Part shown: in pieces, positions 4,736-48,949 of the stretch
Numbering within the stretch: position 1 is the stretch's first letter
How the letters are laid out: each line of letters begins with the position of its first letter
Position numbers and translations under genes: made by a program
NCBI RefSeq assembly: GCF_000717645.1
Contig: NZ_JNZZ01000009.1
Span: 138,438-202,437 of the forward strand
DNA length: 64,000 bases
Reading direction: 5' to 3'
DNA from: Streptomyces californicus
GTDB lineage: Bacteria; Actinomycetota; Actinomycetes; Streptomycetales; Streptomycetaceae
The notes under the pieces: model-generated
What the model was told of the DNA's origin: nothing
The model's database searches: none
The model's input: the letters and a program-made list of their open reading frames with translations, nothing else

Positions 4736-6850
4736 ATGTCGGAGGCGGAGCAGGCACGGGAGCCCCAAGGGGACAAGGACGGTCGTCTCCTCGCGGGGCG
4801 CTACCGGCTCGGGGGAGTGCTCGGCCGGGGTGGCATGGGCACGGTCTGGCGCGCCGACGACGAGACGCTCGGCCGCACGGTCGCGGTGAAGGAACTGCGG
4901 TTCCCCTCGGCGATCGACGAGGACGAGAAGCGCCGTCTGATCACGCGTACGCTGCGCGAGGCCAAGGCGATCGCGCGCATCCGCAACAACAGCGCGGTGA
5001 CCGTCTACGACGTGGTCGACGAGGACGACCGCCCGTGGATCGTCATGGAGCTGGTCGAGGGCAAGTCCCTCGCCGAAGCGATCCGCGAGGACGGCACGCT
5101 GACGCCGCGCAGGGCCGCCGAGGTCGGGCTCGCCATCCTCGACGTGCTGCGCTCGGCGCACCGCGAGGGCATCCTGCACCGCGACGTGAAGCCGTCCAAC
5201 GTGCTGATCGCCGAGGACGGGCGCGTCGTGCTCACCGACTTCGGCATCGCCCAGGTCGAGGGCGACCCCTCGGTCACCTCCACCGGCATGCTCGTCGGCG
5301 CCCCCTCGTACATCTCGCCGGAGCGGGCGCGCGGCCACAAGCCGGGACCGCCCGCCGACCTCTGGTCGCTCGGCGGCCTGCTGTACGCGAGCGTCGAGGG
5401 CTGCCCGCCGTACGACAAGGGCTCGGCCATCGCCACCCTGACGGCCGTGATGACCGAGCCGCTCGACCCGCCGAAGAACGCCGGTCCGCTCACCGACGTC
5501 ATCTACGGGCTGCTCGAACGGGACCCCGAGCAGCGGCTCGACGACGCCGGGGCGCGCGCGCTGCTCAACGCCGTCGTCAACGCCCCCGCCGTGCCCGCGC
5601 CCGCACCGGTGGACTCGACCCAGATCATGGCCATCCCGCCGGCCCCCACCACCGACCCCCTGGTCAAGCGGGTGCCGGGGCCCAAGGCCGCGAAGCCGTC
5701 GAAGCAGTCCCCCGGACCGGGTGAGACCGGCGAGGGCGCCCGCGACCGGCTGCGCGGGGCCCTGCGCTCCGTGCGCAACGCGAAGACCCCGGCCGTCGCG
5801 GCGGGCGCCGCCGCCGGTGCGGCCGCCGCCTCGACCGGCACTCCGGCCGCCGCGGCCACCGGTTCGCCCGCCGCCCCGCCCAAGCCCCCGACGCCGCCCG
5901 GGACGTCCGCCACCGGCGCGAAGCCGGCCGCTGCCTCCGCCCCGGCGGCCGCGAAGGGGTCCGCCTCGGGGGCCGCCGCCGCCACGACGACGGCGAGCCC
6001 CTCCGTACCGGGGCAGCGCCCGCCGTACGGTCCCCCGAGCACCCGTGCCTCGATCACCGACGTAGTGCCCCGCCGCACCCTCGCGATCATCGCGGCCGTC
6101 GTCGTCCTCGCCATCCTCGGCACGGTCCTCGCGCTCACCCTCGGCGGCGACGACGCCGACAACGGCGCCAAGGGCGACCCCGCCGCGTCGGCCGGGGCCT
6201 CGGCCGGCGGGGACGGCAAGGGCGAGGACACGGGCGGCGGTTCGCCCGGGGAGCAGGGCGGCGGCCAGAAGGAGAGCCAGGGCACGGAGGAAGGCAAGCC
6301 GAGCGGCGACCCGTCCGGCGACGCCTCCGAGGACCCGAAGACCGAGGAGCCCGGGGACGAGGGAGGCGAGCCGGACAAGGGCGACGCCCTGCCCGCGGGC
6401 TACAAGGAGATCAGCGACAGCCGGTTCCGCTTCACCATGGCGATGCCCGAGGACTTCACGCGTACCGGCATCGCCGGCCGCAACTCCGGCGGCATCTACA
6501 ACGCCGGGAAGGGCGGCTTCCCCCGCGTCCAGGTCGACTTCAACGACTCGCCCAAGGACGACGCGGCGGCGGCCTGGCGCGGGGCGGTCGGCAGCGCCAA
6601 GGCGTTCAGCGACGGCTACAAGCACGGCGGCATAAAGAAGGTCGAGTACAACGGCTATCCCACGGTCGCCGACTGGACGTTCGAGCGCACCCAGAACGGC
6701 GTCCGGGTCCGGGTGCTCAACCGGGGCTTCAAGGTGGACGCCCGGCGCGGCTACTCGATCATGATCAGCTGCAAGGCCGATGCGTGGGACGGCGAGGAGT
6801 GCACGACGCTCCGCGACACGGCGTTCGGCACGTTCGCGCCCACCGGCTGA
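4736..6850 (+). CDS. Membrane-anchored serine/threonine protein kinase with extracellular domain
   Basis: 704 residues; the ATG at 4736 follows AGAGGGGA. The N-terminal PknB-type kinase domain (about 20-280) has every catalytic element: glycine loop LGRGGMGTV (29-37), VAVK with Lys52, HRDVKPSN (Asp150), DFG (Asp168) and SPE in place of APE. An Ala/Pro-rich juxtamembrane linker leads to one membrane segment (about 448-470), then an acidic Gly/Ser/Glu stalk and a C-terminal domain of about 150 residues that starts LPAGYKEISDSRFRFTMAMPEDF. The last part should lie outside the cell and may sense a ligand. It is first of three related kinase genes in a row. The ligand and substrates are unknown. 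Confidence 0.92.
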   Translation: MSEAEQAREPQGDKDGRLLAGRYRLGGVLGRGGMGTVWRADDETLGRTVAVKELRFPSAIDEDEKRRLITRTLREAKAIARIRNNSAVTVYDVVDEDDRPWIVMELVEGKSLAEAIREDGTLTPRRAAEVGLAILDVLRSAHREGILHRDVKPSNVLIAEDGRVVLTDFGIAQVEGDPSVTSTGMLVGAPSYISPERARGHKPGPPADLWSLGGLLYASVEGCPPYDKGSAIATLTAVMTEPLDPPKNAGPLTDVIYGLLERDPEQRLDDAGARALLNAVVNAPAVPAPAPVDSTQIMAIPPAPTTDPLVKRVPGPKAAKPSKQSPGPGETGEGARDRLRGALRSVRNAKTPAVAAGAAAGAAAASTGTPAAAATGSPAAPPKPPTPPGTSATGAKPAAASAPAAAKGSASGAAAATTTASPSVPGQRPPYGPPSTRASITDVVPRRTLAIIAAVVVLAILGTVLALTLGGDDADNGAKGDPAASAGASAGGDGKGEDTGGGSPGEQGGGQKESQGTEEGKPSGDPSGDASEDPKTEEPGDEGGEPDKGDALPAGYKEISDSRFRFTMAMPEDFTRTGIAGRNSGGIYNAGKGGFPRVQVDFNDSPKDDAAAAWRGAVGSAKAFSDGYKHGGIKKVEYNGYPTVADWTFERTQNGVRVRVLNRGFKVDARRGYSIMISCKADAWDGEECTTLRDTAFGTFAPTG

Positions 6851-35639: not shown

Positions 35640-37460
35640 TCAGGCGGGGTTGAGGCCCTTGCCGCGCAGCCACACCAGCGGGTCGATCGCCGAGCCGCCG
35701 CCGGGCCGGACCTCGAAGTGGAGATGCGGGCCGGTGGAGTTCCCGGAGTTCCCGGAGTACGCGATGACGTCGCCGGCCTTCACCGGGCCCGAGCGGATCT
35801 TGGTGCTGCTGAGGTGGCAGTACCAGGTCTCGGTGCCGTCGGCCGCCGTCACGATCGCCATGACTCCGTAGGCGCTGTTGAGCTGCGTGCGCACGGTGCC
35901 GTCGGTCGCGGCCATCACCGGAGTGCCGTACGAGACGGGGAAGTCGATGCCCGAGTGCGCGGACATCCAGTTGATGCCGGCCTGGCCGTAGTAGGCGCTC
36001 AGCCCGTGCTGCTTGACCGGCAGGACGAACTTGGGGCGCAGCGCCTCGCGGCGGGCGGCCTCCTCCTCGCGCTTCTTCTTCTCGGCCGCCTGCCTCTCGC
36101 GCAGGTCGATGCGCTCCTGGGTGCGGCTCGCCCGCTCGCGGAAGTCGTCGCTCCCCGCGGAGAGCTGCTCCAACTGGCTGTCCAGGCGGCTGTTCGCGGC
36201 GACCACTTCGGCCGAGCCGGGGTCCGCGACCGCCAGCGAAGCGGTCTTGTCCTCCGTCGCGTCGTCGCCGCCGGGCAGCCCGCCGACCGAGGCGGCCGCG
36301 ATGCCCGCGACGCTCATCACGCAGGCGGAGGGCACCGCGACGGTCAGCAGCGCGGAGCGCTTGGCGGGGGTGCGGCGGCGGGCCCGGCCGCGCGAGGCGG
36401 AGGCGCGGCCCGCGGAGCGGTTCACGGGGTGCGGTGCGGGGAAGGCGTCTCCGCCGCCGTGCTCGGGCGCGTCATCGGGGGCGACGTCGAACGCCGGCTC
36501 CGGGACGGTCTCCGGCGCGAGGGCGGCGAACTCGGCGGTGGAGGACGGGTCGGCCCCGGGCTCCTCGGCCGCGTGGTCCGGCTCGGCCGGGCCCTCGGAC
36601 GCCGTCGCGTCGGCCGATACCTGTTCGTACGCGGAATCCGACGTCTGTTCAGACCCGTACGCGGTCTCCCCGGGCGTGGCGCCGGAGTTCCAGGCGGTCG
36701 CGTCGTAGGCGCCGGAGTCGTACACGGAGGTGCCGTAGGCGGTGTACGCGCCGGTGGCGTACGTGCCGGTGTCCTGGGCGTCCGGGGCGAACGCGCCGGT
36801 GGCGAAGGCGGTGGTGGCGTACGTCCCGGTGTCGGCGGCGACGGCGGCCGCGCCGTACGCGCCGATGGGGTACGCGCCGGTCTCGTGGGCGTCCGTGCCG
36901 TACGCGCCGCCGGTTCCGTAGGCCGTTCCGGCCGGGTACGTGCCGGTGTCGTACGGGTCGGTGCCGTACGCGCCCACCCCGTACGCCTCCGTGGCGTACG
37001 ACGCGTCCGTGCCGTACGACGCGTCCGTGCCGTACGGGGTCTCCGTGCCGTACGACGTGTCCGTGCCGTACCCGGTGTCGGCGAAGCCGGTGGCCGGGAA
37101 CGCGCCGGTCTGGTCCTGGCCGGGGACCTGCTGCCACGCCCCGGTGGCGTCCCACTGCTGCGGGACCTGGGGGGCCTGGTCCTGGGCGGCGTAGCCGTCG
37201 TCGTAGGTCAGGGTCTGCTGGGCGCCGGTGTTCCAGGCGGACGCGTCGTACTGGCCGCTGTGGTCCGGCTGTCCGGTCGCGTAGGTGGTGGCGTAACCCG
37301 CGCCGTAGGCGCTGTCGCCGTATCCGGCCGCGGAAAGGTCCGCGTCGTAGCCGGTTCGGTGGTCCCCGGGGAAGGAACCCAAGAGCGGGTCGGTGGCGAA
37401 GCTGCCGGTCGGTCGGCCGTCGTGCCCGACATGCCCGGCGGGGGGGTGCTGGTCGTTCAC
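35640..37460 (-). CDS. Membrane-anchored M23-family peptidase with Tyr-Gly-Thr repeats
   Basis: 606 residues from a GTG at 37460; a TTG one codon upstream is also possible. Residues 1-330 are a low-complexity cytosolic region of YGTDAS, TGTYATGAY and similar repeats, then an acidic stretch. RRRTPAKRSALLTVAVPSACVMSVAG in outline marks the membrane anchor (about 375-400). A coiled coil (about 430-480) precedes the M23 domain, which shows the zinc ligands HSGIDFPV and HLHFEVR. The enzyme should cut peptidoglycan cross-bridges or, if degenerate, activate other hydrolases; the visible ligands look intact. A very long intracellular repeat tail is unusual for this family. It is in the position of Rv0950c in the mycobacterial order. 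Confidence 0.9.
   Translation of the reverse strand: MNDQHPPAGHVGHDGRPTGSFATDPLLGSFPGDHRTGYDADLSAAGYGDSAYGAGYATTYATGQPDHSGQYDASAWNTGAQQTLTYDDGYAAQDQAPQVPQQWDATGAWQQVPGQDQTGAFPATGFADTGYGTDTSYGTETPYGTDASYGTDASYATEAYGVGAYGTDPYDTGTYPAGTAYGTGGAYGTDAHETGAYPIGAYGAAAVAADTGTYATTAFATGAFAPDAQDTGTYATGAYTAYGTSVYDSGAYDATAWNSGATPGETAYGSEQTSDSAYEQVSADATASEGPAEPDHAAEEPGADPSSTAEFAALAPETVPEPAFDVAPDDAPEHGGGDAFPAPHPVNRSAGRASASRGRARRRTPAKRSALLTVAVPSACVMSVAGIAAASVGGLPGGDDATEDKTASLAVADPGSAEVVAANSRLDSQLEQLSAGSDDFRERASRTQERIDLRERQAAEKKKREEEAARREALRPKFVLPVKQHGLSAYYGQAGINWMSAHSGIDFPVSYGTPVMAATDGTVRTQLNSAYGVMAIVTAADGTETWYCHLSSTKIRSGPVKAGDVIAYSGNSGNSTGPHLHFEVRPGGGSAIDPLVWLRGKGLNPA
36979..37075 (-). repeat. 18-bp tandem repeat in the M23 gene
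   Basis: GTACGACGCGTCCGTGCC-type units with an 18-base period encode the YGTDAS repeat. The repeat degenerates on both sides. Confidence 0.75.
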
Positions 37461-37537
37461 CAACTTCTCTCTCGCCTCGGCAACAGGACAGTTCTGGGTC
37501 CCGGTCAGGGGTGTCCCAGGGGGAAGCAGTGGCCGCG

Positions 37538-39715: not shown

Positions 39716-41689
39716 TCAGGCCGCCAGCAGTTCCGCCTCCATCGTGGCGCGCAGCCGCAGGGTGGAGACCAGCCGCTGGAACGCCTCCGACCAGTAGCCG
39801 CCCGCCCCCGGTGAGGCCCCCTCCTGTTCGTCCTGTGCTGCCGTCAGGACCTCCAGCCGGTCGGCCTCGGCCGGGTCCAGGCAGCGTTCCGCGAGACCCA
39901 TCACCCCGCTGAAGCTCCACGGGTAGCTGCCGCCGTCCCGCGCGATGTCGAGCGCGTCGACCACGGCCCGCCCGAGCGGCCCGGCCCACGGGACCGTGCA
40001 GACCCCGAGCAGCTGGAACGCCTCCGAGAGGCCGTGCGCGGCGATGAACCCGGCGACCCAGGACGCGCGTTCGCCCTCCTCCAGGACGGAGAGGAGCTTC
40101 GAGCGCTCGGCGATCGAGGCCGTCCCGGGGCCGCTCGCCGGAGGGGCCGACGGGCGCCCGAGCAGAGCCCGCGACCAATGCGGGTTCCGCTGCCGCACCG
40201 CCGCCCGGCACCACGCCGCGTGCAGCTCACCGGCCCATTCGTCGGCCACGGGCAGGGCCACGACCTCCTCGGCGGCCCGCCCGCCGAACCGCTCCTCCCA
40301 CACGTCGAGCGGCGTCGCCTCCACCAACTGGCCCAGCCACCAGGACCGTTCACCGCGACCGGCGGGCGGGACCGCGGCGACCCCGTCGCGCTGCATGCCC
40401 GCGTCGCATTCGTGCGGGGCCTCCACGGCGATGCCCGGGGAGACGCCCGTACGGTCCAGGTGAACGCAGGAAAGGGCGCGGGCGGCCATCCGTCCGGCGA
40501 GCGCCGACGCGGGCAGGGCGGAGAGCAGTTCGGCGGCGGTGGCGCGCACGTTGCGGCTGCGGTCGGACAGGGCCTGCTCCAGGAAGGGCTCGTCGGCGTT
40601 CCCGAGGCCCGACCGCAGGGAGTCCAGGAACATCAGCCGGTCCTCGGCCCGTTCGGCCGCCCAGGTGGTGGCGAGCAGGGCCGTCCCGGCGGGCGGGTCC
40701 TGTGCCCGTACGGCGTCGAGCAGCGCGATCCGCTCGGCGAACAGCCCCTCCTCCCACAGCCGCGCCACCGCGTCCGGGTCCGTGACGTCGGGGCGGAGGG
40801 TGCCGCCCGCCGAACCGCGCAGCGCGAACCTCCAGTCGGGGTTGAGGCCGGCCAGCCACAGCCCGCGCGGTCCGGCGAACGCGAGCGCCTGCGGCCGCAG
40901 GTCCGTCCGGGCGCGGGCGGCGTCCAGCAGGGGCGGCAGCAGCGAGGCCGGGGCCCGGTAGCCCATCCGGTTGGCGGTGGCCAGCCACTGCGGGATCAGC
41001 TCCGTGAGGTCGGGTGCGGCACCGCGCCGGCCGCCGGCCGAGGGCGCGGCCCGGTCGGCGAGCAGGTGGGCGAGCCGGAGCCGGGCGGCTTCGGGGAGCG
41101 CGGGGCGCGGGTCCGGCGCGGCCGGCGCGGGCCGGGCCTGCGGCACGGCGGGCCGTAGCCCTGCGCGCTGCCGCACGGTGTGCAGCGCGGCGGCGTCCAG
41201 CAGGGCCGCCGGGACGTCGGCCGGCGCGGGTCCGCCGCGCGGGGCGGGAGGGCGGCGGTCGGTGCCGAGGAGCGCCGAGGTGACCAGCTCCTCCCAGGAC
41301 AGCCCGGCGACAGCGTCGAAGCCGGAGGCGGAGGGGGAGGCGGAGGCGGAGCCAGGGCCGGAGGCGGATCCGGAGACGGAGGGGGAGCCCGGGGCGGAGG
41401 CGGATCCGGGACCGGGGCCGCGGTCGGGCGCGGGGCCCGGGCCGGAATGCGCGGATCCGGAGCCGGATCCGGATCCGGATCCGGATCCGGAGCCGGTGGC
41501 GATGCTGGTGCCGGTGGCGGTGACATTCGTGAAGGGGGCGGCCGTCGTGGGAGCGGTCGTCATAAGGGCGGTGCGTGCGGGAACGGCCGTCGCGCGGCCG
41601 GCCGTTGGGGGGCCCGCCATTGCTGAGCCGGTCGTCGTGGGGCCGGACGTGGTGGGTGTGGTCGTTGCGAGGGCGGTCGTGCGAGGCAT
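39716..41689 (-). CDS. DUF5691-type protein of the SWIM/MoxR/VWA cassette
   Basis: 657 residues; the ATG at 41689 has GGGAGGGG upstream. The first 125 residues are Thr/Ala/Ser/Gly/Pro-rich low complexity, including a (GS)n run. The remaining ~530 residues look helical, with HEAT-like spacing of Leu/Ala helices: WEELVTSALLGTDRRPP near the start, a LNPDWRFALRG block and a FLEQALSDRSRNVRATAAEL block that reads like a HEAT unit. No catalytic motif is visible. I assign DUF5691 from memory of the conserved neighbour order in Streptomyces. It follows the SWIM zinc-finger gene by 37 bases and is probably cotranscribed with it. Confidence 0.8.
   Translation of the reverse strand: MPRTTALATTTPTTSGPTTTGSAMAGPPTAGRATAVPARTALMTTAPTTAAPFTNVTATGTSIATGSGSGSGSGSGSGSAHSGPGPAPDRGPGPGSASAPGSPSVSGSASGPGSASASPSASGFDAVAGLSWEELVTSALLGTDRRPPAPRGGPAPADVPAALLDAAALHTVRQRAGLRPAVPQARPAPAAPDPRPALPEAARLRLAHLLADRAAPSAGGRRGAAPDLTELIPQWLATANRMGYRAPASLLPPLLDAARARTDLRPQALAFAGPRGLWLAGLNPDWRFALRGSAGGTLRPDVTDPDAVARLWEEGLFAERIALLDAVRAQDPPAGTALLATTWAAERAEDRLMFLDSLRSGLGNADEPFLEQALSDRSRNVRATAAELLSALPASALAGRMAARALSCVHLDRTGVSPGIAVEAPHECDAGMQRDGVAAVPPAGRGERSWWLGQLVEATPLDVWEERFGGRAAEEVVALPVADEWAGELHAAWCRAAVRQRNPHWSRALLGRPSAPPASGPGTASIAERSKLLSVLEEGERASWVAGFIAAHGLSEAFQLLGVCTVPWAGPLGRAVVDALDIARDGGSYPWSFSGVMGLAERCLDPAEADRLEVLTAAQDEQEGASPGAGGYWSEAFQRLVSTLRLRATMEAELLAA
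41452..41495 (-). repeat. 6-bp tandem repeat encoding a Gly-Ser run
   Basis: GGATCC/GGAGCC-type hexamers in tandem encode the Gly-Ser linker of the DUF5691-type protein. Confidence 0.75.
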
Positions 41690-41726
41690 CTTTCCCCTCC
41701 CGTGGCAGGGACGCGCGGATGTCGGA

Positions 41727-43127
41727 TCAGACCAGGGGGACGACGGACCGGGCGGCGGCGGGCGCGGCCTCCCCTTCCTCCGGATCGCCCGGGTCCCAGG
41801 CGGCGTACGGATCGAAGCCGCGGTGGCCGATCTCCCCGAACACCGTGACCGGCCCCCCGCCGGACAGCGCGACGAGCTTCCACAGCCCCGGCCGGGAGAG
41901 CGCGGCCGGGGCGATCGGCACCGCGGAGGCGGACCGGGCGTCGGCCAACTGCCAGCCGTCCCCGGCCGGCACGGGTACGACGTCGCGCAGGACGACCGGC
42001 CAGGCGTCCAGCCACGGATCGTCCCGCAGGGCGTTCCCGTAGACCGCGGGCGCCTCCGCCGCGGCGATCCCCGGCGGGGGGCCGGCCGGGGGCACCGCTC
42101 CGAACTGCTCGCCCAACTCCGCGCGGAGCTGTCCGCCGCCCGGATACGGCGTCAGCTCGGCGTCGATCGCCGTGCCCACCGGCAGCGCCTGCGCCGGGGG
42201 CCGGCCCGGCGCGCCGAACGAGAGCAGCAGCGCGGTGCGGTGCGAATCCCGCCCGTACAGCCAGATCCGCCGCGCGACGATCCTCCCGTCCGGGGTGTCG
42301 TACTGCGCGAGCACCGACCAGTGGTCCCGGACCGGCGGACCCTCGGCGGACGCGGGCAGCCCCACTCTGGTCCGTACGGTCGCGGCCAGCGGCTCCGGCA
42401 GCCGCTCCCGGCCGAGCCACGCCGTGTCCAGCAGGTGGAGCAGACCGCACTCCTCCAGCAGCCGCACCGGCCCGCCGGGCCCGGACCCGGTGATCGCCCC
42501 CAACTCCCGCACCCGGGCGGCGAGACCGGGGGCCTGGGCGTCGACCATGCGGGCGGCGGTCTCCTCCCATAGGCCGTAGCCCGCGCGTTCGGTCGTGGCG
42601 AGCCCGCCGCGCAGCAGATCGGACAGCCGCTGCTCCAGCTCCCGGACCCCGCCCGTCACCCGCTCGGCGCGGCGCTCCGCCCGCTTCCTGGCGGCGTCCG
42701 TGCTCGTCGGCTCCCGCGCGGCCCCGCTCCCCGGTGAGCCGTCCGCGCGTCGGCGCCGGCCCTCGATCCACGCCGCCGCCCAGTCGGCCGGATCCGACCG
42801 CCGGAACGCGGCCTCGTCCGCCGCCCGCAGCAGCAACAGGCCCAGGGCGTGCTTGCAGGGGAACTTCCGGCTGGGGCAGGAGCAGTGGTACGCCGGGCCC
42901 GTGAGATCGACCACCGTCCGGTACGGCGCGCTTCCGCTCCCCTCGCACCGGCCCCACACCGCTCCCGCGCCGTCCCCGCCCGTGCCGGACCACGGCCCGG
43001 CCGTGCCGAGTCTGCCGCCCGCCGTCCGTGATGCCGCGTCAGGAGCCAGTGCCAGCACCTGCTCCACCGACCAGCGCGCCACCGGCGCGGCGGCGGGCGA
43101 CGTCTCTCCCCCGTGAGATAGCTGCAT
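41727..43127 (-). CDS. SWIM zinc-finger protein
   Basis: 466 residues from the ATG at 43127. The SWIM motif CxCx6CxH is clear as HCSCPSRKFPCKH (Cys82, Cys84, Cys91, His93), preceded by TVVDLTGPAY. SWIM fingers are zinc-binding modules for nucleic acid or protein contacts. The remaining 370 residues are Arg/Glu helical up to about 230, then beta-rich, without known motifs. The predicted transcript start from the DNA-damage-type promoter at 43135-43157 falls one base before the ATG, so the mRNA is probably leaderless, which fits the weak ribosome site. It is the first gene of the minus arm of the cassette, followed by the DUF5691-type gene. Confidence 0.88.
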   Translation of the reverse strand: MQLSHGGETSPAAAPVARWSVEQVLALAPDAASRTAGGRLGTAGPWSGTGGDGAGAVWGRCEGSGSAPYRTVVDLTGPAYHCSCPSRKFPCKHALGLLLLRAADEAAFRRSDPADWAAAWIEGRRRRADGSPGSGAAREPTSTDAARKRAERRAERVTGGVRELEQRLSDLLRGGLATTERAGYGLWEETAARMVDAQAPGLAARVRELGAITGSGPGGPVRLLEECGLLHLLDTAWLGRERLPEPLAATVRTRVGLPASAEGPPVRDHWSVLAQYDTPDGRIVARRIWLYGRDSHRTALLLSFGAPGRPPAQALPVGTAIDAELTPYPGGGQLRAELGEQFGAVPPAGPPPGIAAAEAPAVYGNALRDDPWLDAWPVVLRDVVPVPAGDGWQLADARSASAVPIAPAALSRPGLWKLVALSGGGPVTVFGEIGHRGFDPYAAWDPGDPEEGEAAPAAARSVVPLV

Positions 43128-43134
43128 GTCTCCG

Positions 43135-43157
43135 ACGGTAGGGGTCGGCACTGACAA
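43135..43157 (-). promoter_or_regulatory. Perfect RecA-NDp/PafBC-type DNA-damage promoter before the SWIM gene
   Basis: On the minus strand TTGTCAGTG (43157-43149), 8 bases, TACCGT (43140-43135). This is an exact match to TTGTCRGTG-N8-TANNNT, the LexA-independent DNA-damage promoter known from mycobacterial recA and bound by PafBC. The predicted start is about 43128. Confidence 0.75.
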
Positions 43158-43194
43158 TCGCTCCGACCTGCGAAAGCGCCCGTTCGGTATCAAT

Positions 43195-43223
43195 TTGACT
43201 TTGCCTGCTCTTTGCGTTTCTCT
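43195..43223 (+). promoter_or_regulatory. Housekeeping-type promoter of the lipoprotein gene
   Basis: TTGACT (43195-43200), a 17-base spacer and TTCTCT (43218-43223), about 57 bases before the ATG at 43280. Confidence 0.55.
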
Positions 43224-43279
43224 GCGGTCTCCGCGTACGGAACGGATCCGTGCCCGGACCGATCCAGGGGGGATCCCAG

Positions 43280-43705
43280 ATGAACCGCACCACCCGTGTC
43301 ACCCGCGCCCTCGCGGTCTCCGTCCTCGTGCTCGGACTCGGCGCCTGCTCGGCCGAGTCGGTGGACCAGGCGGTCAACAAGGCGGTCGACGAGGCCGTGG
43401 ACGAGACCTACGAGGTCACGTACGAGGTCACCGGCACGAGCGTCGACGAGATCACGTACCACGGAGGCGGCGGCAAGGCCATGGAGCCCGAGCTGGAGAC
43501 CGTCGACGCGCCCACTCTGCCGTGGAAGAAGACCGTGAAGCTGCGCGGCATCATGCCGCCCGCCGTCATGCCGCTGGCCTTGGACGCGGGCGGCTCCGAC
43601 GTCACCTGCACCATCACCTACAAGGGCAAGGTGATCAAGGAGGCGAAGGGTGAGGGCATGCTCTCGGCGGGCGGCTGCGTCGCCGTGTCGCCGATCGCGG
43701 GCTGA
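43280..43705 (+). CDS. MmpS-family lipoprotein
   Basis: 141 residues from the ATG at 43280 with GGGGGGA upstream. A lipoprotein signal ends LVLGLGAC, with Cys23 as the lipidated residue. After an acidic helix (SVDQAVNKAVDEAVDET) the domain YEVTYEVTGTSVDEITYHGG, WKKTVKLRG and DVTCTITYKGKV follows the pattern of MmpS transport-accessory proteins, including the two Cys of the mature domain. In mycobacteria MmpS partners MmpL exporters; no MmpL gene is nearby. It lies between the two arms of the SWIM/MoxR cassette with its own promoter, so membership is uncertain. Confidence 0.8.
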   Translation: MNRTTRVTRALAVSVLVLGLGACSAESVDQAVNKAVDEAVDETYEVTYEVTGTSVDEITYHGGGGKAMEPELETVDAPTLPWKKTVKLRGIMPPAVMPLALDAGGSDVTCTITYKGKVIKEAKGEGMLSAGGCVAVSPIAG

Positions 43706-43763
43706 CGCCCCCGGGCGGTAACGCCTCCCGCGCGGACGGGCTCTGACCTGCGGTCAGGGCCCG

Positions 43764-43786
43764 TTGTCAGTGCCATGGTGCACGGT
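43764..43786 (+). promoter_or_regulatory. RecA-NDp/PafBC-type promoter before the MoxR gene
   Basis: TTGTCAGTG (43764-43772), 8 bases, CACGGT (43781-43786). The -35-type element is perfect and the -10 differs at one position (CANNNT instead of TANNNT). The predicted start is about 43793, 32 bases before the ATG. A TGACC-TGC-GGTCA palindrome lies just upstream at 43744-43756. Confidence 0.55.
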
Positions 43787-43824
43787 GGGAACCACATCGG
43801 GTCGACCGATCTGGAGGGGGAACC

Positions 43825-45030
43825 ATGACCGTGCCCGCAACCACTCCGACCACCCCGGCCACCCCGGGCGCCGCGACCGCTCCGGCCGCCGCGAACACCC
43901 CGCCCGCGCCGGGTGCCGCGACCGGGGCGGCCCGTGCGCCGGGGGCGGGGGCGGAGGCGCTGCGCCCGCACGCCGAGGACGCGTTCGCGGACGAGCTCGC
44001 GGCGCTCGCGGCCGCCGACGACCGCCCCCGCCCCGCCCGTTGGCGGCTCTCGCCGTGGGCCGTCGCCACCTATCTGCAGGGCGGGGTGCTGCCGGACGGG
44101 ACGGTGATCACGCCCAAGTACGTGGGCCCGCGCCGTCTGGTCGAGGTGGCCGTGACCACGCTCGCCACCGACCGGGCGCTGCTCCTGCTCGGCGTCCCGG
44201 GCACGGCCAAGACCTGGGTGTCCGAACACCTCGCGGCCGCCGTGAGCGGTGACTCGACCCTGCTCGTGCAGGGCACCGCCGGGACGCCCGAGGAGGCCGT
44301 CCGCTACGGGTGGAACTACGCCCAGCTCCTCGCCCACGGCCCCAGCCGCGACGCCCTGGTGCCCAGTCCGCTGATGCGGGCCATGTCCGAGGGCATGACG
44401 GCCCGGGTCGAGGAGCTGACCCGCATCCCCGCCGACGTGCAGGACGCGCTCATCACGATCCTGTCCGAGAAGACCCTCCCGGTTCCCGAGCTGGGCCAGG
44501 AGGTGCAGGCCGTCCGGGGGTTCAACCTCATCGCCACGGCCAACGACCGGGACCGGGGCGTCAACGAGCTGTCCAGCGCACTGCGCCGCCGGTTCAACAC
44601 CGTCGTGCTGCCGCTGCCCGCCACCGCGCAGGACGAGGTCGACATCGTGTCCCGGCGCGTCGACCAGATAGGCCGGTCGCTCGACCTCCCGGTCGCCCAG
44701 GAGGGGCCGGCCGAGATCCGCCGCGTGGTGACGGTCTTCCGCGAACTGCGCGAGGGGATGACCACCGACGGGCGCACCAAGCTCAAGTCCCCCTCGGGCA
44801 CGCTCTCCACCGCCGAGGCGATCTCGGTCGTCACCAACGGCCTGGCGCTCGCCGCCCACTTCGGCGACGGCGTGCTGCGCCCCGACGACGTCGCGGCCGG
44901 CATCCTCGGCGCGGTCGTCCGGGACCCCGGGACCGACCGGGTGGCCTGGCAGGAGTACCTGGAGACCGTGGTCCGCGAGCGGGACGGCTGGAAGGACTTC
45001 TACCGCGCCTGCCGCGAGGTGTCCGCATGA
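43825..45030 (+). CDS. MoxR-type AAA+ ATPase
   Basis: 401 residues; the ATG at 43825 follows GGAGGGGG. A disordered Ala/Thr/Pro leader of about 60 residues precedes the AAA+ core. Walker A is GVPGTAKTW (from Gly123), a Walker B-like region lies near ARVEELTRIPADVQDAL, and sensor/arginine-finger elements read NLIATANDRDRGVNELSSAL and RRRFN. MoxR ATPases act as chaperones that remodel targets together with VWA-domain proteins. The stop codon overlaps the next ATG (ATGA), and a VWA gene follows third, which fits that partnership. A DNA-damage-type promoter lies upstream. Confidence 0.92.
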   Translation: MTVPATTPTTPATPGAATAPAAANTPPAPGAATGAARAPGAGAEALRPHAEDAFADELAALAAADDRPRPARWRLSPWAVATYLQGGVLPDGTVITPKYVGPRRLVEVAVTTLATDRALLLLGVPGTAKTWVSEHLAAAVSGDSTLLVQGTAGTPEEAVRYGWNYAQLLAHGPSRDALVPSPLMRAMSEGMTARVEELTRIPADVQDALITILSEKTLPVPELGQEVQAVRGFNLIATANDRDRGVNELSSALRRRFNTVVLPLPATAQDEVDIVSRRVDQIGRSLDLPVAQEGPAEIRRVVTVFRELREGMTTDGRTKLKSPSGTLSTAEAISVVTNGLALAAHFGDGVLRPDDVAAGILGAVVRDPGTDRVAWQEYLETVVRERDGWKDFYRACREVSA

Positions 45031-47561
45031 CGTCCCCCGCGCCCGCGCGGCCCGCCGCCTCCGCACGGCCCACGGTGCCCGCCGCGTCCGCACGGCCCGC
45101 CGCCTCCGCGCCGCCCGCCGGGCCGTGGCTGCTGGGGGTGCGGCACCACGGGCCCGGATCGGCGCGGGCGGTGCTCGCCGCGCTCGCGGCCGCCCGCCCG
45201 GCCGCCGTCCTCATCGAGGGACCGCCCGAGGGCGACGCGTTGCTGCCGCTGGCCGCCGATCCGGCGATGCGCCCGCCGGTCGCCCTCCTCGCGCACGCCG
45301 TGGACGACCCGGGCCGGGCCTCCTTCTGGCCGATGGCCGCGTTCTCGCCGGAGTGGGTGGCCCTCCGCTGGGCCCTCGACCACGGCGTCCCGGTCCGCTT
45401 CATCGACCTGCCCGCCGCGCACTCGCTCGCGATCGAGGCCCCCGCGCCCGGGGCGGGGGAGGCCCCCCGCGCCGAGGAGGGGGAGCCGTCGGGGGAGCGG
45501 GCAGAGGACGAGGTCACACCCGCCGTGGACCCGATCCGGGTGCTTGCCGAGACCGCCGGGTACGACGACCCCGAGCGCTGGTGGGAGGACGTCGTCGAAC
45601 ACCGCTCCCCGGGCGGCGGGACCGGGACGGGCGGCACGACCGGGACGGACAGCGGCACCGGGACAGGCGACGGGTCCGGTGCGACCGGGGCAGCCGGCGG
45701 GGACGGTGGGACCGGCGCGGGCGACGAGTACGACCCGGGGGCCGCGCTCGCCCCGTTCGCCGCGCTGGCGGAGGCCATGGGCGCGCTCCGCGAGGCGTAC
45801 GGCGACGGCGACCGGCCCCGGGACGCGGTGCGCGAGGCGTACATGCGGATTCAGCTGCGCACGGTGCGCAAGGAGTTCGGGGACGCCGTCGCCGTGGTCT
45901 GCGGGGCCTGGCACGTGCCCGCCCTCGCCGCGCGGACCACCCTCGCCGCCGACCGCGCCCTGCTCAAGGGGCTCCCGAAGGTCAAGGCGGAGCTGACCTG
46001 GGTGCCGTGGACCCACCGCCGCCTCGCCCGGCACAGCGGTTACGGCGCCGGGATCGACGCCCCCGGCTGGTACGGGCACCTCTTCGACGTCCCCGACCGG
46101 CCGATCGAGCGCTGGATGACCAAGGTCGCCGGGCTGCTCCGCGCCGAGGACCGGTCCGTCTCCACCGCCCATGTCATCGAGGCGGTCCGGCTCGCGGAGA
46201 CCCTCGCCGCCCTCCGGGGCCGCCCGCTGGCCGGTCTGGGCGAGACGACCGACGCCGTACGGGCCGTCATGTGCGAGGGGTCCGACGTCCCGCTCGCCCT
46301 CGTCCAGGACCGGCTGATCGTCGGCGAGAGCCTCGGCGAGGTGCCGGACTCCGCCCCGGCCGTCCCGCTGCAACGGGACCTGACCCGCACCCAGCGGACC
46401 CTGAGACTCAAGCCCGAGGCGGCGGAACGCGGGCTCGGCCTCGACCTGCGCAAGGACACCGACGCCGCCCGCAGCCGCCTCCTGCACCGGCTGCGCCTCC
46501 TCGACGTGCGCTGGGGGGAGCCGGTCGAGGGGCGCAGCGGCACCGGCACCTTCCGGGAGAGCTGGCGGCTGAGCTGGCAGCCGGAGCTGTCCGTCCGGGT
46601 CGCGGAGGCGGGCATGTGGGGCACCACGGTCCTCACCGCCGCCACGGCGAAGGCCGAGTCCCTGGCCCGGGAGGCGGCGGCGCTCGCCGGCATCACCGCC
46701 CTCGCCGAGCGCTGTCTCCTGGCCGGCCTGCCCGACGCCCTGCCCGCGGTGATGAGGGCCCTCGCCGACCGGGCCGCGGTCGACGCGGACGTCGGCCACC
46801 TCGCGGACGCGCTGCCCGCCCTGGCCCGCGCCCTGCGGTACGGGGACGTGCGCTCCACGGACACGGCTGCGCTCGCCGAGGTCGCCGCCGGACTCGCCGA
46901 GCGGATCTGCGTCGGCCTCCCGCCCGCCTGCACCGGCCTCGACGCGGACGGGGCCGAGGCGCTGCGCCGCCAGGTGGAGGCCGTGCACGGCGCGATCGGG
47001 CTGCTGGACTCCGGCCCGGCCCGCGCCGAAGGGCTCCGGGACCGCTGGGACGCCGTGCTGCACAAGCTGGCGGCCCGGGACACGGTCGCCGGGGTCATCC
47101 GGGGCCGGGCCGCCCGGCTGCTCCTGGACGAGGGGCGGCTGGCGGAGGACGAGGCGGCCCGGCTGATGGGCCTGGCCCTCTCGCCCGGCACCCCGCCCGC
47201 CGACGCCGCCGCCTGGATCGAGGGGTTCGCCGGCGGCGCGTCGGGCGGCGGCATGCTGCTGGTCCACGACGAACGGCTGCTCACCCTCGTCGACGCCTGG
47301 CTGGCCGGTATCCCCGCCGACCGGTTCACGGACGTGCTGCCGCTGCTGCGCCGCACGTTCTCCGCGTACGAGCCTGCCGTACGGCGCACCCTGGGCGAGC
47401 TGGTCCGGCGCGGGCCCGCCGCCGGGGCCGCGCGTGGCGACGCCGGCCGCTCGGTCGGCGGCTTCGGGCCCGGCCTCGACCGGGGCAGGGCGGACGCGGT
47501 GGAGCCGGTGCTGCGCCTGCTGCTCGGCCGCCCGCCCGAGCCCGCGGGGGCGGCCGGATGA
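45027..47561 (+). CDS. DUF5682-type protein of the MoxR/VWA cassette
   Basis: 844 residues; the ATG overlaps the MoxR stop as ATGA, with GAGG upstream. After an Ala/Pro leader the N-terminal domain starts PWLLGVRHHGPGSARAV and VLIEGPPEGD. A second conserved block is AVVCGAWHVPAL near residue 290, before LKGLPKVKAELTWVPWTHRR. The paired GVRHHGPGS and GAWHVPAL blocks recall ChaN/TraB-like folds that use conserved His and Glu residues, but I cannot confirm this. The C-terminal half (about 450-844) is a long helical array. DUF5682 is assigned from memory. Function is unknown; the operon predicts action with the MoxR ATPase and VWA protein. Confidence 0.82.
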   Translation: MTSPAPARPAASARPTVPAASARPAASAPPAGPWLLGVRHHGPGSARAVLAALAAARPAAVLIEGPPEGDALLPLAADPAMRPPVALLAHAVDDPGRASFWPMAAFSPEWVALRWALDHGVPVRFIDLPAAHSLAIEAPAPGAGEAPRAEEGEPSGERAEDEVTPAVDPIRVLAETAGYDDPERWWEDVVEHRSPGGGTGTGGTTGTDSGTGTGDGSGATGAAGGDGGTGAGDEYDPGAALAPFAALAEAMGALREAYGDGDRPRDAVREAYMRIQLRTVRKEFGDAVAVVCGAWHVPALAARTTLAADRALLKGLPKVKAELTWVPWTHRRLARHSGYGAGIDAPGWYGHLFDVPDRPIERWMTKVAGLLRAEDRSVSTAHVIEAVRLAETLAALRGRPLAGLGETTDAVRAVMCEGSDVPLALVQDRLIVGESLGEVPDSAPAVPLQRDLTRTQRTLRLKPEAAERGLGLDLRKDTDAARSRLLHRLRLLDVRWGEPVEGRSGTGTFRESWRLSWQPELSVRVAEAGMWGTTVLTAATAKAESLAREAAALAGITALAERCLLAGLPDALPAVMRALADRAAVDADVGHLADALPALARALRYGDVRSTDTAALAEVAAGLAERICVGLPPACTGLDADGAEALRRQVEAVHGAIGLLDSGPARAEGLRDRWDAVLHKLAARDTVAGVIRGRAARLLLDEGRLAEDEAARLMGLALSPGTPPADAAAWIEGFAGGASGGGMLLVHDERLLTLVDAWLAGIPADRFTDVLPLLRRTFSAYEPAVRRTLGELVRRGPAAGAARGDAGRSVGGFGPGLDRGRADAVEPVLRLLLGRPPEPAGAAG

Positions 47562-48949
47562 CGACGGACACGGGGGCGCACCCGGCCACGACCGACCCGA
47601 CGGGGGAGACGATGGACCACCCGACGACCACGAACCAGCCGATGGCCACCAACCACCCGACGGCCACGAGCCACCCGACCACCGCGAACCACCCGATCAC
47701 CGCACCGGAGGCCCCCGCCCCCGCCCATGCCACCGCGCCCCCGCCCACCCCGGGCGTGCCCGACGACGAGCGGCTGCGGCGGTGGCGGATGGTGCTCGGA
47801 GCCGACAGCACCGAAGGCACGGGCTGCACCCCCACCGGCCAGGACGCGGCGATGGACGGTGCGCTGACCGCGCTCTACGGCGGGGACAGCGGCGGCAGAA
47901 GGCCCGGTGGCCGGGGTTCCGGCGGACGGGCGGCGGGGCTCGGCGCGTCGGCGCCCGCCGTCGCCCGCTGGCTCGGGGACATCCGGACGTACTTCCCCGC
48001 CTCCGTGGTCCAGGTCATGCAGCGCGACGCGATCGACCGGCTCGGCCTCTCCGCCCTGCTCCTGGAGCCGGAGATGCTGGAGGCGGTCGAACCGGACGTC
48101 CACCTCGTCGGCACCCTGCTCTCGCTCGGCAAGGCGATGCCCGAGACGACCAAGGAGACCGCGCGCGCCGTCGTCCGCAAGGTCGTCGCGGACCTGGAGA
48201 AGCGGCTGGAGAGCCGTACCAGGGCCACCCTGTCCGGGGCCCTCGACCGCTCCGCGCGGACCAGCCGGCCGCGACACCACGACATCGACTGGGACCGCAC
48301 CGTCCGGGCCAACCTCAAGCACTACCTCACCGTCCCCGGCCGGGACGGCGGGGAGCCCACGGGCACGATCGTGCCGGAACGCCTCATCGGCCACGGCCGC
48401 GCCGCCCGGTCCGCGAAGAAGGAGGTCGTCCTCTGCGTCGACCAGTCCGGCTCGATGGCCGCGTCCGTGGTCTACGCCTCGGTCTTCGGCGCGGTGCTCG
48501 CCTCCCTGCGCACCCTCTCCACCCGGCTCGTCGTCTTCGACACGGCGGTCGTCGACCTCACGGACCAGCTCGCCGACCCGGTCGACGTCCTGTTCGGCAC
48601 CCAGCTCGGCGGCGGCACCGACATCAACCGCGCGCTCGCCTACTGCCAGTCCCGGATCACCCGCCCGGCCGACACCGTCGTCGTCCTCATCAGCGATCTC
48701 TACGAGGGAGGCATCCGCGACGAGATGCTGAAGCGGGTCGCCGCGATGAAGGCGGCCGGAGTGGAGTTCGTGACGCTGCTGGCCCTGTCGGACGAGGGCG
48801 CGCCCGCGTACGACCGCGACCACGCGGCGGCGCTCGGCGCACTCGGCGCGCCCGCCTTCGCCTGTACGCCGGACCTCTTCCCGGACGTCATGGCCGCCGC
48901 GATCGAGAAGCGTCCGCTGCCCGTGCCCGACCCGGAGCCCCGGCCCTGA
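47558..48949 (+). CDS. VWA-domain protein (MoxR partner)
   Basis: 463 residues; the ATG overlaps the DUF5682-type stop as ATGA. A Thr/His/Asn/Pro-rich leader with a six-residue repeat (PTTTNQ, PMATNH, PTATSH, PTTANH) covers about 1-60. A helical middle region follows. The VWA domain (about 285-450) has a complete metal-ion adhesion site: DQSGSMAAS (Asp295), GGGTDINRAL (Thr) and ISDLYEGG (Asp). Such proteins bind substrates or effectors for MoxR ATPases. A hairpin at 48956-48978 ends the operon. Confidence 0.92.
   Translation: MTTDTGAHPATTDPTGETMDHPTTTNQPMATNHPTATSHPTTANHPITAPEAPAPAHATAPPPTPGVPDDERLRRWRMVLGADSTEGTGCTPTGQDAAMDGALTALYGGDSGGRRPGGRGSGGRAAGLGASAPAVARWLGDIRTYFPASVVQVMQRDAIDRLGLSALLLEPEMLEAVEPDVHLVGTLLSLGKAMPETTKETARAVVRKVVADLEKRLESRTRATLSGALDRSARTSRPRHHDIDWDRTVRANLKHYLTVPGRDGGEPTGTIVPERLIGHGRAARSAKKEVVLCVDQSGSMAASVVYASVFGAVLASLRTLSTRLVVFDTAVVDLTDQLADPVDVLFGTQLGGGTDINRALAYCQSRITRPADTVVVLISDLYEGGIRDEMLKRVAAMKAAGVEFVTLLALSDEGAPAYDRDHAAALGALGAPAFACTPDLFPDVMAAAIEKRPLPVPDPEPRP

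Follow-up and report, generated by a model that had tools for sequence, protein, structure and literature searches.

A divergent SWIM–DUF5691/MoxR–DUF5682–VWA gene cassette of Streptomyces with RecA-NDp-type elements on both arms, a candidate DNA-damage-induced remodelling machine

Results

Layout of the cassette

We analysed a 64,000-nt stretch of Streptomyces DNA (the window, whose numbering is used for all cassette coordinates) in which five genes form two divergent arms. The minus arm encodes a SWIM zinc-finger protein and a DUF5691 protein, and the plus arm a MoxR-family ATPase, a DUF5682 protein and a von Willebrand factor A (VWA) protein. Sequence comparisons show linkage of these genes across phyla and, on each arm of the Streptomyces cassette, a predicted RecA-NDp element, of a class recognised by the regulator PafBC. 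Our reading, with a probability of roughly 0.6, is that the cassette encodes a protein-remodelling machine that is related to E. coli YehL and induced by DNA damage; its regulation is well supported by sequence, and we infer the biochemical step. Domains were assigned by Pfam profile search, which confirmed all five genes proposed in an earlier, sequence-only reading of this DNA. The features are as follows (E, expectation value; ORF, open reading frame).

39716-41689, minus strand: DUF5691 protein (PF18944, E 1.2e-173; longest ORF 657 aa, conserved part aa 134-654)
41727-43127, minus strand: SWIM zinc-finger protein (PF04434, E 5e-6; ATG 43127 preferred)
42849-42884, minus strand: SWIM motif CxCx6CxH, CSCPSRKFPCKH (computed from residues 104-115 of P0003)
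43135-43157, minus strand: RecA-NDp/PafBC-type element of the SWIM-DUF5691 arm, TTGTCAGTGCCGACCCCTACCGT (exact core in 70/77 related loci, one mismatch in the other 7)
43280-43705, plus strand: small lipoprotein-like gene between the divergent promoters (PF05423, E 9e-5; not core)
43764-43786, plus strand: RecA-NDp/PafBC-type element of the MoxR-DUF5682-VWA arm, TTGTCAGTGCCATGGTGCACGGT (exact core in 76/77 related loci, one mismatch in the other)
43825-45030, plus strand: MoxR-family AAA+ ATPase (AAA_5, E 1.8e-37; in the MoxR tree; PDB sequence matches to midasin and NorQ)
44191-44214, plus strand: Walker A motif GVPGTAKT (computed from residues 123-130 of P0005)
45027-47561, plus strand: DUF5682 protein (PF18934, E 3.9e-290; models predict an N-terminal alpha/beta domain and a long helical repeat region)
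45135-45149, plus strand: GVRHH motif in DUF5682 (R-H-H-G-P-G invariant in 64 window-type sequences)
45900-45920, plus strand: CGAWHVP motif in DUF5682 (C-G-A-W-H-x-P invariant in the same 64)
47558-48949, plus strand: VWA protein of the CoxE-like family (VWA_CoxE PF05762, E 3.7e-61)
48440-48454, plus strand: VWA metal-site motif DQSGS, that is DxSxS (computed from residues 295-299 of P0002)

The ATGA overlaps described for the plus arm are real, at 45027-45030 (MoxR/DUF5682) and 47558-47561 (DUF5682/VWA), and the Walker A motif, the SWIM finger and the VWA metal site are likewise all present, the VWA site's later T and D residues (GGGTD, ISDL) being identified by eye. A HEAT match in the DUF5691 protein is weak and sub-threshold (E 0.018, Pfam). 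The SWIM frame is also opened by an upstream TTG at 43193. ATG 43127 stands at position 31 from the first T of its element, and translation most likely begins there, leaderless, rather than at the TTG.

Damage-type promoters on both arms

We take TTGTCAGTG-N9-AnnnT to be the RecA-NDp consensus, and checked this pattern by a genome-wide control and by the content of the genes downstream. The window holds two matches, both exact and one per arm, where 0.05 would be expected with up to one mismatch, and two were reached in 0 of 100 shuffles. The genome from which the window comes has 34 exact sites against 0 for the reversed pattern. Counts in 17 Streptomyces genomes run from 12 to 74 sites each (control 0), and 13 other genomes have 0-2 (control 0-2).

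For the 32 sites outside the window, downstream ORFs were picked mechanically and 20 of them, chosen by ORF clearness, were scanned with Pfam. Five of the 20 have known repair functions (RecA, UvrB, a Y-family polymerase (dinB), O6-methylguanine methyltransferase and UDG), and by eye one more, a DEAD/Helicase_C_2 protein, is a helicase of repair type. The others include three glyoxalase-type proteins, Imm21, DUF2277, DUF4259, LRR, Fer4, AAA_16 and SnoaL, and four ORFs had no Pfam match at E<=0.001. At 11 of the 32 sites the start of the top-ranked ORF lies 29-32 nt beyond the first T, a spacing consistent with leaderless mRNAs. The same genome encodes proteins that we name by eye as PafB and PafC; their WYL genes adjoin each other, with a PafA-like and a proteasome-like gene close by. 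Elements that are exact, beyond chance expectation, shared with repair genes and conserved in related loci uphold the damage-type promoters proposed for both arms, and PafBC-type regulation of the cassette in Streptomyces is highly probable on this pattern evidence.

We cite published reports here and below from the accessible part of each paper. A RecA-NDp promoter lies before SCO6735, is UV-inducible and has been aligned with the S. coelicolor recA promoter (PMC5087735, PMC9411070). In another actinobacterium, pafBC deletion lowers MoxR1, MoxR2 and the von Willebrand factor protein MSMEG_5511 (PMC5656591), which implies no kinship to the cassette. Our literature search, which covered few subscription papers, found no publication linking PafBC to the cassette, and searching by the names DUF5682 and DUF5691 found no paper.

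The actinobacterial LexA-type pattern GAACN4GTTC has no match in the cassette and a sole window match at 4892; LexA control of the window cassette was rejected on this ground. Other element-headed genes of this genome deserve separate mention. One encodes an Imm21 immunity-type protein, whose start lies 29 nt beyond the element's first base (L011, C3:9445), and two similar proteins start at offset +31 under RecA-NDp elements (L021 and L024, at C11:179478 and C15:7234), the former a leucine-rich-repeat protein by Pfam. A second RecA-NDp-headed operon (L040 2147-6309; element at 93646 of C15) encodes a SWIM-type protein (PF04434 just below cut-off) and then a long protein, repeat-like by eye; we saw no MoxR gene by eye in that stretch.

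Conservation in Streptomycetaceae

Related loci were taken as the best 80 of 579 confirmed stretches (78 Streptomyces, 1 Streptantibioticus and 1 Actinacidiphila). By tblastn, DUF5682 is present in 80, MoxR in 78, SWIM in 77, VWA in 76 and DUF5691 in 71; the flanking genes, which we take from their sequences to be icmB-like on one side and sucC-like on the other, are found as IcmB in 67 and SucC in 68. All absences of MoxR, SWIM and DUF5691 fall at contig ends, as do three of the four VWA absences. Across the genus, 119 of 121 genomes have some DUF5682 and about 112, counted by score, reach a cassette-level best score.

The footprint of the element was measured on the 77 loci that have both SWIM and MoxR. 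An exact TTGTCAGTG faces the plus arm in 76 of these and the minus arm in 70, with 0 occurrences in the remaining 1,394,607 bases of the same loci. Each of the seven loci without an exact minus site has a one-mismatch copy, as does, for the plus site, the one among them that also lacks an exact plus site; the one-mismatch scan was restricted to these seven loci and has no chance estimate attached. On the minus arm, an ATG stands at element position 31 in 65 of the 70 exact sites.

The lipoprotein gene, which the sequence-only reading had placed at the centre of the cassette, was found in 8 of the 80 loci (tblastn). SWIM and MoxR are separated by fewer than 300 bases in 61 of 77 loci, and by 585-749 where the lipoprotein gene is present (8 loci). 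We rejected it as a core part and regard it as an optional insertion.

Linkage beyond Streptomyces

Among 346 Actinomycetota genomes, DUF5682 occurs in 32 (31 above cut-off), 17 of them from the window's own genus. DUF5691 exceeds the Pfam cut-off in 27; each of these 27 has DUF5682 as well, and in 26 the two lie on one contig. Five more genomes have a sub-threshold DUF5691 only and no DUF5682. The expected linkage of the genes is supported: frequent separate occurrence is not seen for DUF5691, since every genome with it also has DUF5682, and DUF5682, MoxR and VWA are found without DUF5691 in related systems.

Ten further actinobacterial loci (L165-L174) show the gene set, with DUF5691 by profile only in L169 and a DUF5691 profile that matches the first part only in five of the ten. 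From a plasmid collection, 16 records had a match and 10 were examined, several of them chromosome-sized. The order SWIM-DUF5691-MoxR-DUF5682-VWA, all in one direction, was seen, with the help of annotation, in Deinococcus, Hymenobacter, Methylobacterium, Rhizobium, Nonomuraea and Nocardia. DUF5691 was not detected at the Fusobacterium locus; at the Methylosinus locus it is known solely through the annotation, and the VWA frame there is fragmented. A single 1010-aa coding sequence (CDS) with no internal stop covers SWIM and DUF5691 in Hymenobacter sp. HDW8 (L127 3183-6212), while the similar H. radiodurans locus has them as two CDS; the single reading frame suggests that the two proteins act together. 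The plasmid cassettes of Methylosinus trichosporium (VWA match in pieces, L128) and Hymenobacter radiodurans (DUF5682 annotated in three pieces, L131) appear to be decaying.

Sister lineages and the E. coli counterpart

A survey that scored at most three candidates per genome found at least 14 further DUF5682 loci in 17 genomes of the same genus. They fall into three lineages.

Lineage B, 3 loci: SWIM-like protein, VWA, MoxR, DUF5682
Lineage C, 9 loci: 284-aa-type DUF4132 protein, protein of about 1700 aa, MoxR, DUF5682, VWA
Lineage D, 2 loci (L179, L180): WGR/DUF4132 or DUF4132 protein, MoxR, DUF5682, VWA, SWIM-like protein

One lineage C contig (L164) ends before the VWA position, and one D-lineage leader protein carries both the WGR and the DUF4132 domain. 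The SWIM-like label for B and D is our reading; the two of these proteins tested had no Pfam match. Twelve of the 14 loci have the element at the head of the operon: 3 of 3 in B, 7 of 9 in C (5 exact, 2 with one mismatch) and 2 of 2 in D. The chance of an exact site in one 150-nt head is about 3e-4. Outside the genus, sister lineages have the element in 0 of 2 (B) and 0 of 1 (C) loci.

YehL is a named MoxR subfamily. In a tree of 47 MoxR rows, the window lineage (A) and lineages B, C and D separate, and E. coli YehL stands beside D with support 100/99, not in the clade of the window MoxR, which falls on the opposite side of the tree; the tree flags long branches, YehL among them. In E. coli K-12, a LexA-like box, CTGGATAAAATTACAG, lies just before yehF (molR), upstream of yehI and yehLMPQ (L003 4450-4465). 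By itself this box is not significant (6 matches at the threshold against a shuffle mean of 3.0), so the LexA claim for molR rests on the literature, which lists molR among LexA-regulated E. coli genes (PMC11039860) and describes MolR as part of the LexA regulon (PMC8533742). About 8 kb separate this box from yehL downstream; a common transcript is an assumption. In D. radiodurans, DR2173 (WGR) and DRA0166 (DUF4132) are up on DdrO depletion (PMC8533742), without kinship to the cassette machine being implied.

Protein domains and folds

The N-terminal domain of DUF5682 appears, with moderate support from models, to be TraB/erythromycin-esterase-like; it differs from that fold in about 100 mostly low-confidence inserted residues and in the long helical repeat region that follows. 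DUF5682 had no significant PDB sequence match, and a whole-length fold search was filled by helical-repeat proteins, with nothing specific; the informative model was that of the N-terminal domain taken separately. Its RHH, E-G-P and C-G-A-W-H-x-P positions are invariant in the 64 window-type sequences, and the odds that it is an active enzyme seem to us about even. The solved chains matched by the MoxR protein are midasins and NorQ, and a PDB sequence search with the VWA protein gave no function. NCBIfam returned only below-cut-off matches for the window proteins, among them a weak ViaA match to the VWA protein (E 1.8e-4, 20.9 bits against a cut-off of 500). MoxR, VWA and DUF5682 probably form one complex. 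Elsewhere in the window, a minus-strand ORF (35640-37463) has a long Tyr/Gly/Thr/Ala-rich low-complexity stretch and, by eye, a C-terminal M23-peptidase-like part.

Discussion

Proposed mechanism

A recruit-and-remodel mechanism is plausible. PafBC would induce the two arms at once after damage. Damaged or stalled nucleoprotein would be recognised by the SWIM protein with DUF5691, or in the sister lineages by WGR/DUF4132 proteins, and the VWA protein, through its metal site, would grip this target and dock it onto the MoxR ring. MoxR, using ATP, would then remodel or extract the target. DUF5682, with its helical-repeat scaffold, predicted TraB/erythromycin-esterase-like head and conserved RHH, E and WH positions, may be the catalytic or client subunit that processes material delivered by MoxR.

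Several observations weigh against this reading. Nucleoprotein is a tentative choice of target that draws on domain types only. The model of the DUF5682 N-terminal domain had no Foldseek match at E<=0.001, its E-G-P motif is E-L-P in most lineage C loci, and lineage B loci were unmatched in a simple motif search. One related locus (L076) lacks VWA by tblastn despite 1681 bases after DUF5682. The SWIM ORF of S. coelicoflavus (353 aa; L117 6518-7579) keeps the promoter and the remaining domain and has no CxCx6CxH finger, which makes the finger dispensable there; in L073, L079, L089 and L095 the SWIM match likewise begins only at residue 179, past the finger.

The regulatory evidence, too, is bounded. 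TTGTCAGTG is absent from 12 other actinobacterial cassettes (fetched loci L123, L124 and L165-L174), from 8 loci of other phyla and, at the operon head, from two of the nine lineage C loci (L178 and L188). A scan with simple patterns for LexA, RDRM, the alphaproteobacterial SOS box and PafBC covered the 10 plasmid-collection loci and E. coli; there, the 8 loci of other phyla included, matches were scattered and none lay ahead of the first cassette gene on that gene's strand. Damage control of the cassette is therefore supported by sequence for one family rather than everywhere. Those genomes examined among the hosts of the other actinobacterial cassettes use the element hardly or never, so its absence says nothing about another damage box there. 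According to an initial motif search by others, S. venezuelae may not conserve the PafBC motif of M. smegmatis (PMC9380542), and our literature search turned up no expression data for the five genes after damage.

Alternative explanations

Among other readings, enzyme or cofactor maturation would have MoxR and the CoxE-like VWA protein activate or metal-load DUF5682 as the true effector, with damage induction serving DUF5682 chemistry. MoxR/VWA pairs serve CO dehydrogenase, NO reductase and chelatases in this way. The window VWA protein belongs to the CoxE family, NorQ is the solved match of its MoxR apart from midasins, and DUF5682 combines conserved His and Glu positions with the predicted TraB/EreC-like head; the SWIM, DUF5691 and WGR/DUF4132 partners are left unexplained, and we consider maturation unlikely. 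It is improbable that the cassette is instead a regulator of chromosome topology, in which DUF5682 would activate transcription of topA (transiently gyrB), as proposed for SCO4804, and the operon would sense supercoiling, not damage. An sco4804 insertion lowers TopA, overexpression transiently raises topA and gyrB, and depletion of TopA increases expression of sco4804 and the genes next to it about eightfold (PMC8120823). Judging by size and gene order, sco4804 (815 aa) is very probably the cassette DUF5682 gene, since an 814-aa ORF occupies the same place in S. coelicoflavus. The conserved RecA-NDp element gives another cause for this induction, however, because losing TopA may lead to DNA damage. 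The Pfam search assigned no DNA-binding family to DUF5682, although in the published work three DNA-binding regions are predicted in it (PMC8120823), and topA control does not account for relatives across phyla.

The sequence-only reading had favoured a conflict or cell-fate system, and a cell-suicide role like that of the MoxR-vWA ternary systems of Kaur et al. 2020 (PMC7159879) would draw on the same MoxR-VWA pair with a third protein, on a weak bpMoxR match (E 1.3e-4, below cut-off) and on the patchy spread of DUF5682 in Actinomycetota. PADLOC gives it no support, returning at E<=0.1 only two weak IetA matches to the AAA protein (E 0.014 and 0.03). The Pfam results of six window proteins at E<=0.1 hold no VMAP, iSTAND, FtsH or EAD domain, with nSTAND3 on the MoxR P-loop at E 0.014, below cut-off, and one viral-contig scan with a window protein found no relative. 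A core stress function fits better than an anti-phage island, given how common the cassette is among Streptomyces and its synteny with sucC, seen in 68 of 80 loci; we find the conflict role very improbable. That the promoters are ordinary ones, with no damage role and a motif shared by coincidence, is hardly credible. The activity of the element is predicted from sequence, and no damage box was recognised outside the family; yet the genome-wide control is 0, repair genes lie downstream, the cassette sites are conserved, the element recurs in sister lineages, and 17 Streptomyces genomes use it.

Implications

MoxR-DUF5682-VWA machines could constitute a general but so far unrecognised part of how bacteria respond to DNA damage. 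We hold this wider idea at somewhat below even odds. Four deep Streptomyces lineages have PafBC-type promoters, the E. coli counterpart lies near the LexA target molR, and the WGR and DUF4132 genes of Deinococcus radiodurans are DdrO-controlled. Exchangeable recognition subunits (SWIM/DUF5691 or WGR/DUF4132) would then direct one ATP-driven extraction core, which includes a TraB/Ere-like enzyme, to various lesions or to protein-DNA complexes that have become stuck. DUF5682, DUF5691 and DUF4132, whose functions are unassigned, gain a common and testable context in DNA damage. For the response to supercoiling reported for sco4804 and its neighbours, the element offers a different cause; it also points to a conserved PafBC-type target set in Streptomyces, where the published initial motif search was negative (PMC9380542). 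The E. coli puzzle of a LexA-controlled molR near yehLMPQ also becomes testable.

Comparison with known systems

RavA-ViaA, NorQ-NorD and CoxD-CoxE are MoxR/VWA pairs of the same two protein families as the window MoxR and VWA proteins. Their operon partners differ from those in the window, whose pair has no known client. The MoxR-vWA ternary conflict systems likewise join a MoxR and vWA chaperone pair to further partners, but their third components are VMAP, iSTAND and FtsH, according to the available text (PMC7159879), and the window has DUF5682, SWIM and DUF5691 instead. With the PafBC/RecA-NDp regulon of actinobacteria (PMC8223512, PMC5087735) the cassette shares the type and position of the element; such a MoxR/VWA cassette is not named in the accessible portions of these two papers.

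A close counterpart is E. coli yehL-yehM-yehP-yehQ, which, like the window, has AAA_5, DUF5682, VWA_CoxE and SWIM (yehQ) proteins in one cluster. Unlike the window, the yeh cluster has no DUF5691 and has a WGR protein (yehF) and a DUF4132 protein (yehI) upstream instead, and the Streptomyces loci that share its gene order are those of lineage D (L179, L180) rather than the window. The window nonetheless holds the genes of a YehL-type system, a MoxR ATPase, VWA_CoxE and DUF5682 together, with a SWIM protein in the same cluster.

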